Shown: piece by piece, positions 41,442-51,496 of the stretch
How the letters are laid out: each line of letters begins with the position of its first letter
How positions within the stretch are numbered: position 1 is the stretch's first letter
DNA from: Musicola paradisiaca NCPPB 2511
Lineage (GTDB): Bacteria > Pseudomonadota > Gammaproteobacteria > Enterobacterales > Enterobacteriaceae
Direction: 5' to 3'
Assembly: GCF_000400505.1 (NCBI RefSeq)
Contig: NZ_CM001857.1
Coordinates: forward strand, 2,470,257-2,534,256
DNA length: 64,000 nucleotides
Translations under genes and position numbers: made by a program
Notes under the pieces: model-generated
The model's database searches: none
Told to the model about the DNA's origin: nothing
What the model saw: only the letters and a program-made list of their open reading frames with translations

Positions 41442-43452
41442 TTAGCGCGCCAGCAGCGCTTCCGCCTGATGCAGCAGGTTGTCGAGGGTAAAGCCATAGC
41501 GCGCAAACAGTTGCCCGGCCGGGGCCGATTCACCGAAGTCGCGCATCCCCACCACGGCGCCGTGCAACCCGACATACTTGTACCAGTAGTCGGCGATGCT
41601 CGCCTCGACCGCGATGCGTGCGCTTACCGCTGAGGGCAGCACCGCTTCGCGGTAAGCGGCATCCTGCTGGTCGAACACGTCGCAAGACGGCATCGACACC
41701 ACCCGAACCGCCACCCCGCGCGCCGACAGCACTTCCCACGCGGCCACCGCCAGCGCGACTTCCGACCCGGTGGCGATCACAATCAGCCTGGGCGGCAGCG
41801 TACCGTCTTTCAATACATAGCCGCCCCGCGCGATCGCCGCCAGTTGCGCGTCGTTGCGCGGCTGTTGCGCCAGATTCTGGCGCGACAAGATCAGCGCCGT
41901 CGGGCCGTCATGCCGCTGCACCGCCTGTTGCCAGGCCACCGCGGTTTCCACCTGATCGCACGGGCGCCACACGCTGAGATTCGGCGTCACCCGCAGCATC
42001 GCCAGCTGTTCCACCGGCTGGTGGGTCGGGCCATCCTCCCCGAGCCCGATAGAGTCGTGGGTGTAGACCAGCACCTGACGTTGCTTCATCAGCGCCGCCA
42101 TGCGCACCGCGTTACGGGCGTATTCGACGAACATCAGGAAGGTGGCGGTATACGGCAGGAAACCGCCGTGCAACGCCATCCCATTGGCGATGGCGGTCAT
42201 GCCGAACTCCCGCACGCCGTAGTGCACATAGTTGCCGGCCGGATCTTCATTCAACGGCCGGGAGCCGGACCACAGCGTCAGGTTGCTCGGCGCCAGATCG
42301 GCGGAGCCGCCCACCAGCTCCGGCAACAGCGGGCCAAAGGCATTCAGGGCGTTCTGCGAGGCCTTGCGGCTGGCAATCTCCGCCGGGTTAGCCTGCAAGC
42401 CGGCGATGAACGCCTGCGCGTCATCCGCGAATGTTGACGGCAACTCGCCGCGCATACGGCGGGTAAACGCCGCCGCCAGCGCGGGAAACGCGCGCGCATA
42501 ATCCGCAAACCGCGCCGCCCAGGCGTTTTCCCTTGCCTGACCAACCTCCCGCGCATCCCACTGCGCACGGATTTCCGGCGGGATCACGAACGGCGGGTAT
42601 GGCCAGCCCAGCGCTTCGCGGGCCGCCGCCACCTCCGCAGGCCCCAGCGGCGCGCCGTGGGACTCGTGGCTGCCGGCCTTGTTGGGCGAACCGAAGCCAA
42701 TCACGGTTTTGCACATCAGCAGCGACGGCTTATCGCCGACTGCGCGCGCGGCGTTGATCGCCGCACGGATCGCCGCCTCGTCGTGCCCGTCAATGCCGCG
42801 CACTACATGCCAACCGTAAGCCTCAAACCGGGCGGCGGTGTCGTCGGTAAACCAACCGTCGACATGACCATCGATGGAGATGCCGTTGTCGTCGTAAAAC
42901 GCCACCAGCTTGCCTAGCTTCAGCGTCCCCGCCAGCGAGCACACCTCGTGGGAAATGCCCTCCATCATGCAACCGTCGCCCAGAAACACATAGGTGTAGT
43001 GGTCGACCAGGGTATGCCCCGGCCGGTTGAACTGCGCCGCCAGAGTACGTTCGGCCAGCGCCATCCCGACGGCGTTGGCGATGCCCTGCCCCAACGGCCC
43101 GGTTGTGGTTTCCACGCCGGGCGTGACGTCCACCTCCGGGTGTCCCGGCGTTTTTGCTGTGCATCTGCCGGAAATTTTTCAGCTCCTCCAGCGGTAGCGC
43201 ATAGCCGGTCAGATGCAGCAGGCTGTAAAGCAGCATCGAGGCGTGGCCGTTGGAGAGCACAAACCGGTCGCGGTTAGGCCAATCGGGGTTGGCGGGGTTA
43301 TGGTGCAGAAACTCGCGCCACAGCACGGTGGCCATATCCGCCATGCCCATCGGCGCGCCGGGGTGGCCGGAATTGGCCTGCTGTACCGCGTCCATACTCA
43401 GTGCGCGAACCGCATTGGCTAATGGCCGTGCGGTGTAATCAGAGTGCGTCAT
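41442..43452 (-). pseudogene. tkt: Transketolase of the accessory cluster, with +1 frameshift
   Basis: Two frames make one transketolase of about 669 residues. The first (from 43452) encodes [41 protein letters not shown]...NFRQMHSK. The second encodes [31 protein letters not shown] to the end, including the ThDP site ([40 protein letters not shown]) and [17 protein letters not shown]. They join if one A is removed from the A5 run at 43151-43155 (T5 on the plus strand). Transketolase moves C2 units between sugar phosphates and accepts erythrose 4-phosphate. It overlaps no neighbour and follows the transaldolase gene by 18 bases. Confidence 0.85.
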
Positions 43453-43470: not shown

Positions 43471-44421
43471 TTACATCAGGCTATGCAGCATATTTTCCAG
43501 CCGAATCTGATCGGCGGCGAACAGCCGGATACCTTCCGCCAGTTTGTCTACCGCCATCGGGTCGTCGTGGTGCTGCCACAGGAACTCCGCCTGCGTCATC
43601 GGGCTGGGGCGTGTTTCGCTGACCGCCTCGACGGACAATTGGCGCGGCAGCGGTTCATCGCACGCCTTCAGCTCGTTGAGCAGCGCCGGGGAGATGGTCA
43701 GCCGGTCGCAGCCCGCCAGCGCCGTCACCTGCGATTTCTTGCGGAAACTGGCCCCCATCACCACGGTGTCGTAACCGTGCGTTTTGTAATACTGGTAAAT
43801 GCGCCGCACCGAGGCCACCCCCGGATCGTCGCCGGGCTCCGCCGACGTTTGCGCGGGGTGGGCCTGATACCAGTCATAGATGCGCCCGACGAACGGCGAG
43901 ATCAAGTAGACGCCGGCTTCCGCACAGGCTCGTGCCTGCGCAAAGGAGAACAGCAGCGTCAGGTTGCATTGAATGCCCTCCTGCTCCAACTCTTCGGAGG
44001 CGCGGATCCCTTCCCAGGTCGCCGCCAGTTTGATCAGAATACGCGAGCGGTCGATGCCCTGTTCCTGATACAGCGCGATCAGCCGCCGCGCTCTGGCGAC
44101 GCACAGACCGCGATCCCAAGACAAGCGGGCGTCCACCTCGGTCGATACCCGGCCGGGCACCTGCCGCAGCACTTCCGCGCCGATGTTGACCGCCACCTGA
44201 TCACACGCATTGAGCAACCGGGTGGCGTCACTGCCGCCCTGCCGCTGCGCCTGCCCGACCGCATCGCGGATTAGGCTCTGATATTGGGGCAATTGCGCCG
44301 CCTTGAGGATTAAAGAGGGATTGGTAGTAGCGTCCTGCGGCGCGAACTGCCGGATGGCGTCGATATCGCCGGTATCCGCCACCACTACCGTGTACTGTTT
44401 TAAAGCATCCAGTTGGTTCAT
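43471..44421 (-). CDS. tal: Transaldolase (TalA type)
   Basis: This 316-residue class I transaldolase has the Schiff-base Lys131 in [13 protein letters not shown], Asp17 in ADTGDID and the blocks [12 protein letters not shown] and [16 protein letters not shown]. It is about as similar to E. coli TalA as the accessory pair talA-tktB suggests. It exchanges C3 units between sedoheptulose 7-phosphate/glyceraldehyde 3-phosphate and erythrose 4-phosphate/fructose 6-phosphate. It lies between the RpiB paralogue and transketolase in the cluster, so erythrose 4-phosphate handling is the common theme. Confidence 0.94.
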
Positions 44422-44453: not shown

Positions 44454-44912
44454 CTATTCGGCAATATGTTGATTTTGATAGTAATCGATACGTTCCACCT
44501 TCGCCGCCGAGCCGCCGCCTTCATACTCGGCATTCAGCCAGGCGCGAATAATCTGCTTGCCCAGTTCAGCGCCGATCACCCGGGCGCCCAACGTGACGAT
44601 CTGCGCGTTGTTGCTTTTCCGCGCCCGCTCCGCCGAGAACGTATCGTGGCACTGCGCGGCACGAATGCCCGGCACTTTGTTCGCCACAATGCTCATCCCA
44701 ATGCCGGTGCCGCAGATTAAAATGCCGCGATCCTGCTGACCGGCTTTAATCGACATGGCGACGGCGTGCGCCACATCCGGGTAATAACGGTTATCCGCAT
44801 TTTTATCGCTGCTGAAATCCACCCAGGGAATATTGAGCGAATCGAGATAATTCGTAATGGTACTGCGTAATTCATACGCAGCGTCATCCGCACCAATGGC
44901 GATTGGTTTCAT
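44454..44912 (-). CDS. RpiB/LacAB-family sugar-phosphate isomerase paralogue
   Basis: This 152-residue protein has the RpiB fold: [17 protein letters not shown] at the N-terminus, [61 protein letters not shown] with the catalytic Cys in ICGTGIG. The usual GSDHAG motif is GADDAA here, so the substrate-binding His is replaced by Asp, pointing away from ribose 5-phosphate. Known RpiB paralogues in erythritol/tetritol pathways (EryI, DerI/LerI) isomerise tetrulose 4-phosphate to erythrose 4-phosphate, which would fit this cluster. AAGGA lies before the ATG at 44912. Confidence 0.88.
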
Positions 44913-44961
44913 GATTAACATCCTTACTTCAGATTAATGAAATTTTAATTCAGTCGAATTT

Positions 44962-45333
44962 TCAGCACGGTTCAGAAATAATGATATTTCCTGAACCCGG
45001 TAATTTATCCGGTATATTCCCCTTAACATGTACCGTCCCCGGTAATTCCGCCGTGGCACTGCCGTCGAATAACAGCGTGATATGTCCCAGCTCGCGTAAA
45101 TTATGGTTGGCGACATCGCCGACGGCGGTAATCACATAATTCTTGCCGTCTAATTCCAACTGCTGATCCACCGCCAGCGGCTGGAACCATTCATCATCCT
45201 GATGCAGCAGGCAGTACGCCCCCAGATCCGGCGGCACGCAATCGCTGAACAGAATCACGCGATTGTCCTGCCGCATCGCCTCCGCCTCCTGACCGACGGC
45301 GCGGATCGTCGCTTGCCACACGACATGTCTCAT
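44962..45333 (-). CDS. PTS sorbitol/glucitol-type EIIA component (SrlB-like)
   Basis: This 123-residue protein matches EIIA-Gut: WQATIRAVGQEAEAM, PPDLGAYCLLHQD, QQLELDGKNYVITAVGDVANHNLRELGHITLLFDGSATAELPGTVHVKG. His44 (in CLLH) corresponds to the phosphorylated His43 of E. coli SrlB. It should take phosphate from HPr. No EIIC is present in the window; the partner is most likely the EIIB domain fused to the kinase two genes upstream (46515-48233). The gene starts 10 bases after the stop of the permease gene, behind GGGGGCAGGA. Confidence 0.93.
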   Translation of the reverse strand: MRHVVWQATIRAVGQEAEAMRQDNRVILFSDCVPPDLGAYCLLHQDDEWFQPLAVDQQLELDGKNYVITAVGDVANHNLRELGHITLLFDGSATAELPGTVHVKGNIPDKLPGSGNIIISEPC

Positions 45334-45343
45334 TCCTGCCCCC

Positions 45344-46351
45344 TCATTTCGCTTTATCCGCCGGCGAGTTGAACGGCTGCCCCGCCGCTTGCGTTGCCGG
45401 CGCTTCGGCATCGGTTTTACGCAGGCGCTTGTCAAACCAGGCCACCAGCACCGGCGCGGTGAGCATGGTGATGATGCTGGCGGTCGCCAGTTGCGCGGTG
45501 GCGGCATCAACGAATGCCTGTAGCGTCGGGTCTGCCTGGGCCACCATCGCCGGCGTCAAGGCCGAACTGGCCGCCGTGGTGCCGAGCGCCGCGCCGAGTG
45601 CGGTTTTCTTCTTCAAAAACAGGTTGTACAAGAAGTAGAAGACAATCGCGGTCAGGGCGGAAATGCCGCCTAACAGGATGCCGGACAGCCCGGCGCTGAA
45701 CACCGTATTCATGCTGGAGTTGGCGCCGATCGCAAACGACATGATGATGATGATCAGCGGCTGGGAGGCGGCGCACAACTGTTTGAATTTCTCATCAATA
45801 TTGCCCCACATCATCCCGACCAGCAGCGGCACCAGCATCGACAGCAACGCCTCGAACGGAATATTGGCCAACCCGCTGACCCCCAATACCACCATGGTGA
45901 CGAACGGCCCATCCTTGATGCAGAACACGGAAATGGCCCCGGCGTCGCTGGCGTCGCCATAGTTGCTGCACAGCGCGATATACAACGAGCTGTTGGAGCT
46001 GGTAATACAGGCCACCAACGCCAGCGTAGAAATACCGACGAAGCCCGCCGGCCCGAACATGGCGCCCATAATCCACACCGCCAGCGCGCCGGCGGCAAAT
46101 TTCAGCATCAACAAGACTGCGCCTTTATATAACGGCAGCCCGGCTTGGCGAATATTGATCGACGCGCCGCAAATCAGCAGGAATATCCCCATCATCGCGC
46201 TGGAACCGGCTTTAAATAATGCCGTCGTCGGGCCGCCTATTTTTAACATCGACGGGAAAAAGGTATTAATTAATATGGCAAGGATTAATGGAATAATAAT
46301 CAACCCGCCGGGGAACTTATTCATCTTGTCAAACAGATTTATATTTTTCAT
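45344..46351 (-). CDS. 2-keto-3-deoxygluconate permease family transporter (KdgT-like)
   Basis: This 335-residue membrane protein has about ten segments and the family blocks KMNKFPGGLIIIPLILAILINTFFP, SSNSSLYIALCSNYGDASDAGAISVFCIKDGPFVTMVVLG and GTTAASSALTPAMVAQADP. KdgT is a proton symporter for sugar acids. Homologues adjacent to DUF1537 and PdxA2 genes in other enterobacteria probably carry C4 acids such as threonate or erythronate. The hydrophilic C-tail (KTDAEAPATQAAGQPFNSPADKAK) is longer than usual. It is not the pectinolysis kdgT by context. It is cotranscribed with the EIIA gene. Confidence 0.92.
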   Translation of the reverse strand: MKNINLFDKMNKFPGGLIIIPLILAILINTFFPSMLKIGGPTTALFKAGSSAMMGIFLLICGASINIRQAGLPLYKGAVLLMLKFAAGALAVWIMGAMFGPAGFVGISTLALVACITSSNSSLYIALCSNYGDASDAGAISVFCIKDGPFVTMVVLGVSGLANIPFEALLSMLVPLLVGMMWGNIDEKFKQLCAASQPLIIIIMSFAIGANSSMNTVFSAGLSGILLGGISALTAIVFYFLYNLFLKKKTALGAALGTTAASSALTPAMVAQADPTLQAFVDAATAQLATASIITMLTAPVLVAWFDKRLRKTDAEAPATQAAGQPFNSPADKAK

Positions 46352-46514: not shown

Positions 46515-48233
46515 TTACTGCGTCGCTTCGCGATAAATATGTTCAACGATGGTATGAATCACCTCATCCGAGCCGGTCAGCCCGCCTTTGCCGACGCACA
46601 CCAACCCGTTGTAATCACCGCCGATGATCCTGACCAAATCGGTCTGCGGTATCACGTAATCCACCATTTCGATGCCGCTGGCGCCCAATCGTCTGAGCAC
46701 GTTCACCATGGTGTCGCCCCCGGTCATGTACAACCCGCGAATTTCGCCGCCGCCGGCATCCAGCACCGCCCGGACGATATCCCCCAGCCCACGGTTGATA
46801 TTGTCGGCCGCCTGCCCGTGCGCCAGCCCAAAGCGTTGCTCCTCCTGTGCTAAATCCAGCAACCGCCCGGTCAGCGCCGATTCGAACACGAAAATGGCAT
46901 TGCGATGTGTGCGCACGCACTCCTGCGCCTGACGCACCACCCGCTGCACTTCAATCTCGGCCGAGTGTTCCCGGTCAATCAGCAGTTCCGCATCCACCGG
47001 GATATGGCACACGCGCGCGTCCTGTTCGATCAGCCGGGTTAGCTGGCGTTTGGTCACGGGCGTGGCGCTGCCCGCCACCACCACCACCGACCCTTGCTGT
47101 TGGCTCACCGGCACCGGCGTTGCTTCCGGGCGCGGTTCATCGCGGATCATCTCCCGCGCCCAGGCCAGCCGTTCGGTAAACGGCCCCGGATCCACCGCCA
47201 GTACGTTCCAGTTCAGCAGCGTCACCGCCCGGGCGATGGTTTCGACATCCGCCAATGAGATGGCATCCACCACCATGATGCGCGAGCCGTTTTGCTGCAA
47301 CTGGCTCAGCGCCTGGCTGACCGCGTCGTACCCCTTGAGCACGCAGGATAACGCGATGTGGCCGACGTGGTGGTGCGTCTGCGCGGCCAGCAGTTCCGGC
47401 ACAAAGGTTTCCGTCACCGGGGTGCGCACGTCTTTAGCCACATCGGTGCACGACAGCGCCACCGAGTCGATGACCGAGTAGCCGCCCACCAGAATCCGAC
47501 GCGATTGCGGCATCGCCGGCACGACGACCGCCACGGTTTCCTGCGGCAACACCTCCAGCATGGCATCGATTTCATAGCCAATGCCGCCGCGCAGCGTGGT
47601 ATCGACGCGCTTGGTGAAGTAGCGCGCCCCGCGCGCCTGCAACGACAGCGTGGCCTGGCGCACCAATTGTTGCGCTTCCGCTTTCGGCAGTGGCCGGCTA
47701 TTGCTGCTGATCACCATCGCCTGCCAGTCTGAATCGCAGGCGTCGAAGGAATCCGCGTCAAAAAAGGCCGCGGTTCTGATGCCGCTGCGCGCCAGCAACA
47801 CCCCGACGGTGGTCGCGCCGGTCAGGTCATCCGCCACGATGCCCAGCCGGTCGCCCTGCCCGCCTTCGCTGCGCAGTTGCACCCCGGCCGGCGTGACGCC
47901 GGACACGTAAATATCGTCACGGATAAACGCCGCCAGCGGCCCGGTTTTGCCGGTGGGGTGCAGGTTGATGGTGGGAATGCCGCGTTTGGGGTACAGGCCG
48001 CAGCGCAGCGTGCCGCCGCAATCGATCACCACCAGCCCGATCTCCTGCTCCTCCGGTTCGCCGTGCTTAAACACGTCCACCGCGTCCCAGCCGGTCAACT
48101 CCATCAAGCGATCCACCACCGCCGGGCGAATACCTCCGGTGATATAGGCAATCTTTTTCCCCGCCGTTACTTCAAGGCTCAAGGGCCCGCCCCAGCCTTT
48201 GCTGCCGCGGGTAATTTCCAGATAACGTTTCAT
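46515..48233 (-). CDS. Fusion: PTS sorbitol-type EIIB domain + DUF1537 four-carbon acid sugar kinase
   Basis: This 572-residue protein has two parts. Residues 1-120 closely match the N-terminal EIIB domain of E. coli Srl[79 protein letters not shown]. Cys72 and Cys78 are conserved, one being the expected phosphorylation site. Residues 128-572 are a complete DUF1537 kinase: [20 protein letters not shown] at the start of the domain, KRVDTTLRG, and the nucleotide-site [15 protein letters not shown] near the C-terminus. DUF1537 kinases phosphorylate threonate/erythronate-like acids at C4. The downstream operon encodes a matching EIIA but no EIIC. AAGGAGA precedes the ATG. I know no described protein with this domain order. 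Confidence 0.93.
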
Positions 48234-48288: not shown

Positions 48289-49314
48289 TTATCGGTGTTT
48301 CATCTTCCAGTAGCGTGCCGCCACCAGCGTTGACTCCAGCATGCTGACGGTGCCGGCCTTGCCGGTACCGGCGATATCAAACGCCGTGCCGTGGTCAACC
48401 GAGCTGCGCATAAACGGCAGGCCGAAGGTGATAGTGACCGAGCGCTCGAAGTCCAGCGTCTTGCAGGCGATATGCCCCTGATCGTGGTAGAGAGAAAGGA
48501 TCGCGTCGTAATGCCCCAGTTTGCCCTGGTGGAAAACCGAGTCGGCCGGAACCGGCCCGATCGCATTGATACCGAGCGCCTGCGCCGCCTGAACCGCCGG
48601 AATGAGGTTGTCTTTCTCCTCATGCCCGAACAGCCCGTTGTCAGACGCATGGGGGTTGAGCGCGGCGACCGCGATGCGTGGTTGCGGGATATTCAGCGCG
48701 GTGAATTCATGGTGGATCTGCTGTACGCAGGCCAGTACCCGTTCTTTGTTGGCATAGTCGCAGGCGTCTTTCAGCGCCATATGACGGCTGACGAAGAACA
48801 CGCGCAGTTTCTGCACATGGAACATGGTCAGACCGTAATCGGAGCCGGTTTCCACCTGATAGATCTCGGTATGGCCGGGCAGCTTGCAGCCCGCCAGTTT
48901 GATGGCTTCTTTATGGATCGGCGCGGTGGAGACCACGTCAATCTCGCCGGCCATGCCCAGCGCGATGGATTTCATCACGTAATCCAGCGACATCTGGCCG
49001 GCCAGTTTCTGCACTTTCCCCCAGACGATGCTGTCGCAGTCGTAGTCGCCGGTCTCCAGCACATCCAGCGTTCCCCAGGTGAAGCGGGCTTCGGCCGGCG
49101 AGTGAATCACGTTGATGGCGAAGTCGCAGTTCCAGATGGCCATCGCCCGTTGGATGATCGGCACTGAACCGATCAAAAACGGCCGGCACTCCTCATACAC
49201 CGCTTGATTCATCATGGTGGCGACGGAGATTTCCGGGCCAATGCCCGCCGGGTCGCCGATGGTAAGGGCTACGACAGGTTTGTTATCAACAACAGGTTTG
49301 TTATCAACCGACAT
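48289..49314 (-). CDS. pdxA2: PdxA2-type 4-phospho sugar acid dehydrogenase
   Basis: This 341-residue protein belongs to the PdxA family: [74 protein letters not shown] and [10 protein letters not shown]. The metal-binding His/Asp residues are present. PdxA2 paralogues next to DUF1537 kinases oxidise 4-phospho-D-threonate or -erythronate with NAD and release CO2 to give dihydroxyacetone phosphate. Context here indicates that role rather than vitamin B6 synthesis. The start at 49314 has AAGGTG upstream. An 18-bp tandem duplication near the start gives [12 protein letters not shown]. Confidence 0.92.
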
Positions 49315-49559
49315 ATTTTTCACCTTTTTCATATGGCCAGAACAACCAAATGTTCATATGTTCACTTAAATAACTTTTGTTAGGTGGCAGTTTACGGTAA
49401 GAAAAACAAATAACCTTGAATAAGGTCACGTTTCATACAGAAATATCCTTGACCGGAGAAATGTGTGATCGAACATTTGTTTTGGTCATGATTATAAGTA
49501 ACGCGATAAGGACTTTTGTTACCCTCACCGCAGACGAATAGTGATAACGGGAGTGATTA
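49315..49559. promoter_or_regulatory. Divergent promoter region of the C4-acid cluster
   Basis: Between pdxA2 and tpiA2. AAATGTTC at 49348-49355 recurs inverted as GAACATTT at 49471-49478, and ACTTTTGTTA occurs twice in direct orientation (near 49372 and 49510). Such paired sites are good candidates for operators of the SorC-family regulator at 50534. TGTGA at 49464-49468 could be half of a CRP site. Confidence 0.55.
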
Positions 49560-50346
49560 ATGAGAAACCTGATGCTGGGCACCAGTTGGAAAATGAACAA
49601 AACCCTGGAAGAGGCCAACGCCTATTGCGATGTGTTGGTTAATCGGCTCAATGCGGCGGCCGGCCCCCACATCCAGCCATTCGTCATCCCCCCTTTTACC
49701 CTGATTCGTGAGGTGACGACGCGCTTGCGTCAGGGCGGCGTCAACTGCCTGACCGGCGCCCAGAACATGCACTATGCCGATGCCGGCGCCTGGACCGGGG
49801 AAATCTCACCGGCCATGGTGCGCGACTGCGGTGCGACGCTGGTGGAGCTGGGCCATTCGGAACGGCGGCGCGACTTTGCCGAAAATGACGCGGATATTCA
49901 GAAAAAAAGTACAGGCCGCGCTACGCTATCAGCTACGGCCGCTGGTGTGCGTCGGTGACAGCGCGCAGGAAAAAGGCTGGGGGGTCTCGATTGAAACCGT
50001 CGTGCGTCAGATGAAAATCGCCCTGGCCGGGCTGGCGCGCCCGCAGGTTGAACAGGTGATCATCGCGTATGAACCCGTGTGGGCGATCGGCGACGGCGGC
50101 ACCCCGGCGACGGCCGATGAAGCGCAAACCATACACCGCGCCCTGCGGCAGGCGCTGGCGGATACCTACGGCCCGGACACGGCGGAAAACGTGACGTTGC
50201 TGTACGGTGGCAGCGTAAATCCGCATAATAGTTCGGCGCTGATCCAATGCCCTGATATCGATGGATTATTCATCGGCCGCTCGGCATGGGACGCTGAGGG
50301 TTTTTGTCGATTGGCGCACAACGCCGCGACGTGGCGGGAACGTTAA
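49560..50346 (+). pseudogene. tpiA2: Triosephosphate isomerase paralogue (TpiA2/EryH-like), with +1 frameshift
   Basis: Two frames form one TIM-barrel protein of about 261 residues. MRNLMLGTSWKMNKTLEEANAYCDVL (catalytic Lys and Asn), VELGHSERRRDFAENDADIQKK, then VQAALRYQLRPLVCVGDSAQE, IIAYEPVWAIGDGGTPAT (catalytic Glu) and LLYGGSVNPHNS. They join if one A is removed from the A7 run at 49902-49908. The GTSWKMNKT form is seen in TpiA2/EryH paralogues, which act on tetrulose 4-phosphates, but conversion of the DHAP made by PdxA2 is equally possible. GGGAG precedes the ATG. Divergent from the rest of the cluster. Confidence 0.85.
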
Positions 50347-50533: not shown

Positions 50534-51496
50534 ATGAGTGAATTCGATTCAGACAGCGAACTGCTGACGGAAATTGCCGTCGCCTATTACGAAAACGAAC
50601 AGACGCAAGAAGAGATCGCCAGCCGTTTCGGTATCTCCCGCATCAAGGTCGGGCGCCTGCTGAAACGCGCGCGCGCGGAAGGTATCGTCGAAATCAATGT
50701 GCGCTACCACCCGGTTTTCAGTTCGCAGATCGAACAGCAGTTCATCCGGAGTTTCGGCATCAAACGCGCGCTGATCGCCCTCGACCATCACGATGAAGAA
50801 GAACAACGTCAGCAGGTGGCGTCGTTGGTTTCCACCTACCTGTCCAGCATCATCAAAAACGGCATGACGGTTGCGGTGGGGCAAGGCCGCAACGTCGCCG
50901 CCGTCGCCAGCCATGTCGGCGTCTTTCCCGAACGGCAGTGCAGGTTCATTTGCGGCATCGGCGGCACCAAACGCGACGGCGAGCTGATCGACGCCGACCA
51001 CATCAGCCGGCATCTGGCGCGCAAGTTCAACGCCAGCAGCGAAACCCTGTACGCCCCGGCCTACGTGGAAAACTCAGCGATGAAAGCCGCCTTCATGCAG
51101 AACCGCTTGATTAGCGAAACGCTGGATCGCGCCAGCAAGGCGGACATCGCGCTGGTGGGGTTGGGGGACATGAACGAAAACAGTTTTATGGTGCAACTGG
51201 GCTGGTTTACCTCGCAGGAGATCATCACCGCACGCCAGGAACAGGGCGTTGTCGGCGATATCGCCGGTTATTCTTTCCTCGATATGCAGGGCACGCCGGT
51301 GGACACCGTGATGAACGACCGGGTGATTGGGCTCAGCCCGGAACAGTTGCGCAAAATCCCCTGCGTCATCGCCATCGCCGCCGAGAATACCAAGGCCACC
51401 GCGATACTGGCGGCTTTACGCTCCGGGATTATCGATGTGATCGCCACCAGCGCCAGCAATGCCCGCACGGTGCTGAACCTGGAACAGGCGAAATAG
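50534..51496 (+). CDS. SorC/DeoR-type sugar-binding transcriptional regulator
   Basis: This 320-residue protein has an N-terminal HTH (LLTEIAVAYYENEQTQEEIASRFGISRIKVGRLLKRARAEGIVEINV) and a C-terminal SorC sugar-phosphate-binding domain (GMTVAVGQGRNVAAVASHV, ADIALVGLGDMNENSF, IIDVIATSASNARTVLNL). EryD, the erythritol repressor of Brucella, belongs to the same family. It most probably controls the divergent C4 cluster in response to a phosphorylated intermediate. It lies 187 bases after tpiA2. The ribosome binding site (GGCGAG) is weak. Confidence 0.92.
   Translation: MSEFDSDSELLTEIAVAYYENEQTQEEIASRFGISRIKVGRLLKRARAEGIVEINVRYHPVFSSQIEQQFIRSFGIKRALIALDHHDEEEQRQQVASLVSTYLSSIIKNGMTVAVGQGRNVAAVASHVGVFPERQCRFICGIGGTKRDGELIDADHISRHLARKFNASSETLYAPAYVENSAMKAAFMQNRLISETLDRASKADIALVGLGDMNENSFMVQLGWFTSQEIITARQEQGVVGDIAGYSFLDMQGTPVDTVMNDRVIGLSPEQLRKIPCVIAIAAENTKATAILAALRSGIIDVIATSASNARTVLNLEQAK

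Follow-up and report, generated by a model that had tools for sequence, protein, structure and literature searches.

A single open reading frame of Musicola paradisiaca NCPPB 2511 encodes a 572 aa protein in which a sorbitol-type (Gut) PTS EIIB domain is fused to a DUF1537 acid-sugar kinase. The gene occupies 46515..48233 on the minus strand of the window, the 64,000-nucleotide stretch of DNA that was analysed, and was delimited from its ORF together with Pfam and phmmer matches. The best reading, to which we give a probability of roughly 60%, is that a relay running from HPr through a linked EIIA to this EIIB gates the kinase. For this relay we infer the phosphotransfer, the identity of the cysteine acceptor and the direction of the effect.

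Domain architecture and gene neighbourhood

The original prediction held that the first 120 residues are a SrlE-like EIIB with its cysteine site and that the remaining residues are a full DUF1537 kinase, and a domain search bears out both halves. The EIIB domain, as delimited by Pfam and by invariant residues, spans residues 1-122 (47868..48233, minus strand). PF03612 (EIIBC-GUT_N) matches residues 5-123 with an E-value of 1.5e-48 and 165.4 bits against a cut-off of 22.8, and the DCGGTLRCG site includes C72 (its first cysteine and the presumed phospho-acceptor; codon 48018..48020) and C78 (its second; codon 48000..48002), both encoded on the minus strand and both invariant in 20 of 20 fusions. 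By phmmer, the solved SrlE, the glucitol/sorbitol PTS EIIB (PDB 9x2m), matches residues 4-120 (E 1.1e-48), aligned throughout and with an identical DCGGTLRCG site. The fusion differs from SrlE in that it keeps only the first ~120 residues, with the kinase replacing the rest, and in that the EIIC partner is absent in five genomes. Only positions 2-120 of the 184-position PF03612 profile are covered and positions 121-184 are absent, which suggests that only the EIIB portion of SrlE was acquired.

In the kinase half, an SBD_N acid-sugar binding domain at residues 130-355 (47169..47846, minus strand; PF07005, E 1.1e-59) is followed by an NBD_C nucleotide-binding domain at residues 384-558 (46560..47084, minus strand; PF17042, E 1.6e-30), and the presence of both assigns this half to DUF1537. 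Solved DUF1537 structures match residues 129-561 by phmmer, and the kinase motifs ADDLTGA, KR.DTTLRG, TGGDT and GKGG are invariant. An AlphaFold2 model of the whole protein (mean pLDDT 89, pTM 0.80) predicts the EIIB half as a folded domain joined to the kinase by a weaker block at residues 121-130, and the best Foldseek matches to this model are DUF1537 structures. An assembly artefact is ruled out because the ORF is free of frameshifts, orthologues in many other genomes have the same architecture, and the intact fusion sequences number 20.

The gene sits in a cluster whose usual order is pdxA2, EIIB-kinase, kdgT, EIIA, rpiB, tal and tkt, with a triose-phosphate-isomerase (TIM) homologue and a SorC-type regulator transcribed divergently. 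On the minus strand of the window these are a PdxA2-type 4-phospho-acid dehydrogenase, the putative next pathway step (48289..49332; NF002992 at 584 bits, PF04166), a KdgT-family acid-sugar permease (45344..46351; PF03812, 6.5e-108), an EIIA(Gut)-like protein that is the putative phosphate donor for the EIIB (44962..45333; PF03829, 1.1e-31) and the only EIIA-Gut of the genome, an RpiB-family sugar-phosphate isomerase (44454..44921; profile matches), a transaldolase (43471..44421; Pfam) and a transketolase (41442..43452; ORFs and intact relatives), all in one operon with the fusion. In an alignment, His44 of the EIIA (45202-45204, minus strand) corresponds to the His of the conserved YC..H motif in SrlB, which we take to be the active one. 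The coordinates and strand originally given for the fusion, and the position of the EIIA, were all correct. On the plus strand lie the TIM homologue (49560..50346; intact relatives match TIM models) and a SorC/DeoR-type sugar-binding regulator that is likely the local regulator (50534..51496; PF04198, 8.9e-80); we looked for a shared operator motif in the gap between pdxA2 and tpi and found none conserved.

Two of these neighbours are broken in the window's genome. Compared with intact relatives, the transketolase has a frameshift near residues 100-109, and its two parts are 74-79% identical to those relatives. The TIM homologue has one near residue 118, which suggests that the pathway may be decaying downstream in this genome, with the kinase still intact.

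Distribution, origin and a natural deletion

A genome-wide search for the same fusion recovered at least 20 distinct intact copies in Enterobacterales. Scanning named genomes located it in Klebsiella pneumoniae, K. oxytoca, K. spallanzanii, Raoultella, Kosakonia, Intestinirhabdus, Mixta, Pantoea, Erwinia, Pectobacterium, Serratia sp. H1w and Zophobihabitans. The genome samples were partial: a whole-protein match was present in 8 of 343 genomes of the family, the window's genome counted, and the same set contained a decayed copy (G316) and a kinase without EIIB (G315). No further fusion appeared in 369 sampled genomes of the class Gammaproteobacteria or in 399 sampled genomes of Bacillota, the phylum of a Bacillus relative, where near-complete EIIB-Gut matches sit in frames of about SrlE length. 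A full-length match was likewise absent from 5,426 E. coli genomes, in which the best matches are srlE. The original claim that no protein with this domain order has been described holds insofar as our search of open-licence papers found no account of the fusion, or of a PTS branch ending at such a kinase, but the architecture itself is common in Enterobacterales.

Some copies are damaged or displaced. One of the eight family matches (G396, L058:8047-9762, minus strand) has a single in-frame TAA after residue 286 and a split rpiB, suggesting decay or sequence error. In Enterobacter sp. EA-1 (L064 / L102), the whole cluster lies in many broken frames; this genome is rated 49% complete at 5.1 Mb and looks like a case of widespread decay or poor sequence. 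A K. pneumoniae plasmid (NZ_CP098173.1) bears the entire cluster, with the fusion annotated by NCBI as a ‘four-carbon acid sugar kinase family protein’; lolDE, nagK and cobB flank the cluster there, and the arrangement resembles a captured chromosomal segment.

In a phylogenetic tree, the fusion-borne EIIB domains cluster in a single group (98/94) separate from SrlE, so the fusion likely arose once. Unfused kinases come as close as 56% identity; the nearest occur in Bacillota and Actinomycetota in clusters that contain pdxA2 and often kdgT, rpiB or tpi, and neither EIIA nor EIIB was found within their flanks. Several genomes with an unfused kinase carry an ordinary SrlE-length gene elsewhere. 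A two-gene precursor, with a separate EIIB beside the unfused Bacillota kinases, was sought by blastp and profile search and none was found within the flanks.

The EIIB has been maintained together with the EIIA. Each of the 23 loci with an EIIA also has the EIIB fusion; they represent 20 distinct genomes, including decayed ones, and the count comes from related genomes and is uncorrected for phylogeny. The fusion loci without an EIIA are one whose contig ends inside kdgT (L066), one decayed remnant (L065) and that of Zophobihabitans, which encodes two further EIIA-Gut elsewhere in its genome. The kinase-only protein of G315 starts MEKHSLMGKGSK as its fused relatives do and continues almost directly with the linker, followed by a kinase frame that is open, and the tree places its kinase inside the fusion group; judged from sequence, its EIIB is deleted in frame. 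That genome has no EIIA-Gut, EIIC-Gut or EIIB-Gut anywhere, and it retains kdgT, pdxA2 and tal along with the open kinase. Loss of EIIB and EIIA with retention of the kinase suggests that the two behave as a unit, which the kinase is able to shed.

Where it is present, the EIIB is under strong purifying selection. Its dN/dS between pairs of the 20 fusions is 0.01-0.09, similar to that of the kinase. Of 109 positions in the EIIB, 57 do not vary, and these include C72 and C78. Consistent differences from SrlE occur at 5 sites only, and nearly all positions conserved in SrlE are kept. The YC..H motif of SrlB is retained by the linked EIIA of the fusion loci, with the exception of Pantoea sp. A4 (L076:12814-13167, plus strand), where the PF03829 match is kept, the conserved His is gone and the EIIB keeps both cysteines. 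Elsewhere, one genome (G080, locus L041) encodes a very divergent second EIIB-Gut beside an EIIA-like neighbour that lacks the usual YC..H motif.

A PTS branch and its possible outlets

The window's genome encodes EI, HPr, EIIA and EIIB, and PF03608 (EIIC-Gut) was not found in it, which makes this a PTS branch without a permease. Four other genomes (G325, G396, G507 and G515) similarly combine the fusion with one EIIA-Gut and no EIIC-Gut, and in these five the EIIA-EIIB branch would end at a soluble kinase rather than at a permease. EIIC-Gut is carried by 4 of the 10 genomes checked; G370, G432, G542 and Zophobihabitans have the fusion plus a sorbitol EIIC, and cross-talk could drain phosphate there.

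We propose that an ATP-dependent acid-sugar kinase of the DUF1537 type, accompanied by PdxA2 and KdgT, gained a sorbitol-type EIIB once as an N-terminal regulatory module. Phosphate would pass from PEP through EI and HPr to His44 of the linked EIIA and on to Cys72, setting the phosphorylation state of the EIIB. Where EIIC is missing, phosphorylated EIIB could pass its phosphate only to the kinase or in reverse to HPr, and with no permease to drain the phosphate its state would report the level of PEP and phosphorylated HPr, that is, the uptake of preferred PTS sugars. The kinase would likely be active while the EIIB is phosphorylated and restrained once preferred sugars strip the phosphate. 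Regulation is the simplest role for the relay, since the kinase possesses a conserved nucleotide domain and motifs of its own and its relatives, provided that their genes are functional, would work without EIIB. The predicted PTS control of the kinase thus gains support from comparative data: the domains, the conserved cysteine site, the linked EIIA with its His, the co-loss with EIIA and the absence of EIIC in five genomes. Counting against it are the Pantoea sp. A4 EIIA without its His, the Zophobihabitans fusion without a linked EIIA and the sorbitol EIIC of some genomes.

Among the alternatives, EIIB and EIIA might act on KdgT, by inducer exclusion or by tethering the kinase there, rather than on kinase activity. 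This is unlikely. The usual gene order of fusion, kdgT and EIIA would fit it, as would the predicted bile-acid-symporter-like fold of KdgT, whose fold matches include SbtA bound to the regulatory SbtB. However, KdgT had no EIIC-Gut match in the fold search, and so no inherited docking site for an EIIB; the Zophobihabitans fusion has no kdgT nearby, and G315 keeps kdgT without EIIA or EIIB. That KdgT might be an EIIC-Gut in disguise was rejected on the same search, which led to bile-acid-symporter folds (model pLDDT 74, and so of moderate weight).

It is improbable that phosphorylated EIIB gives its phosphate to the kinase, through bound ADP or to the acid sugar, making this a PEP-driven kinase like the PTS-linked dihydroxyacetone kinase, although DhaM and DhaL set a precedent (PMC3863723), five genomes lack an EIIC to take the phosphate, and the EIIB shares a polypeptide with the acid-sugar site. 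We give similarly low odds to its specific form, a permease-less EIIA-EIIB branch in which phosphate is fed within one chain to an already imported acid sugar. The nucleotide domain and motifs of the kinase are fully conserved, and the unfused relatives and G315 would work without EIIA and EIIB if their intact genes are functional. That unfused relatives and the G315 deletion keep the kinase suggests that catalysis can probably proceed without PTS phosphate.

We consider it very improbable that the EIIB is a non-functional relic or an appendix for solubility or folding, as the shedding of EIIB by G315 and the decayed clusters of several relatives might suggest, since its dN/dS is below 0.1, its active-site cysteine is invariant and the EIIA is co-retained. 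Least credible is that it still serves as the soluble EIIB of a sorbitol permease, its fusion to a kinase incidental: the EIIC-Gut genes noted above and the little sequence change from SrlE would allow this, but the five fusion genomes without any EIIC-Gut, the window's among them, and the missing C-terminal part of SrlE argue against it.

Substrate, known systems and significance

The DUF1537/PdxA2 pathway is already known, and we presume that PdxA2 with this kinase points to a four-carbon acid yielding DHAP by that route. With rpiB, tal, tkt and tpi as neighbours, the substrate could also be a five-carbon acid that enters via a tetrulose phosphate. All curated kinase equivalog models fall well below their cut-offs (199.8 bits against 450 for the D-threonate kinase NF047819 and 156.5 against 350 for the 3-oxo-tetronate kinase), and thus the substrate may differ from those of DtnK, LtnK, DenK and OtnK. 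The PdxA2 and RpiB proteins are also below the equivalog cut-offs for D-threonate-4-phosphate dehydrogenase and D-erythrulose-4-phosphate isomerase.

The fusion shares both domains, the motifs and a PdxA2 neighbour with the DUF1537 four-carbon acid sugar kinases, the family of those four enzymes (PDB 1yzy, 3dqq, 4xfm, 4xg0 and 5dmh). We know of no described DUF1537 kinase that bears a PTS domain, and the open-licence literature searched yielded none. DhaKLM resembles the fusion in coupling a PTS relay to a soluble kinase, and there DhaM transfers phosphate to ADP held by DhaL (PMC3863723). The two systems differ in that DhaM is a multidomain protein of the EIIA-Man family and the only phosphate source, whereas the kinase described here carries an EIIB-Gut on its own chain and has an intact nucleotide domain. 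NCBIfam NF011497, a model for a triose-phosphate isomerase-EIIB fusion known to us from its NCBI name alone, also places a PTS EIIB on a soluble metabolic enzyme, but its EIIB is of the glucose/sucrose type and the enzyme is an isomerase.

Most known cases of PTS control over carbon use involve either an EIIA that acts on other proteins or a regulator with PTS domains. Here, across a clade that spans gut and plant bacteria, an EIIB is built covalently into a metabolic kinase; it has an EIIA dedicated to it, and several of the genomes lack a permease. A ‘PTS IIA’ annotation in such clusters does not imply sorbitol transport, and the fusion would offer a system in which the coupling of acid-sugar catabolism to the PEP/HPr state can be tested directly.
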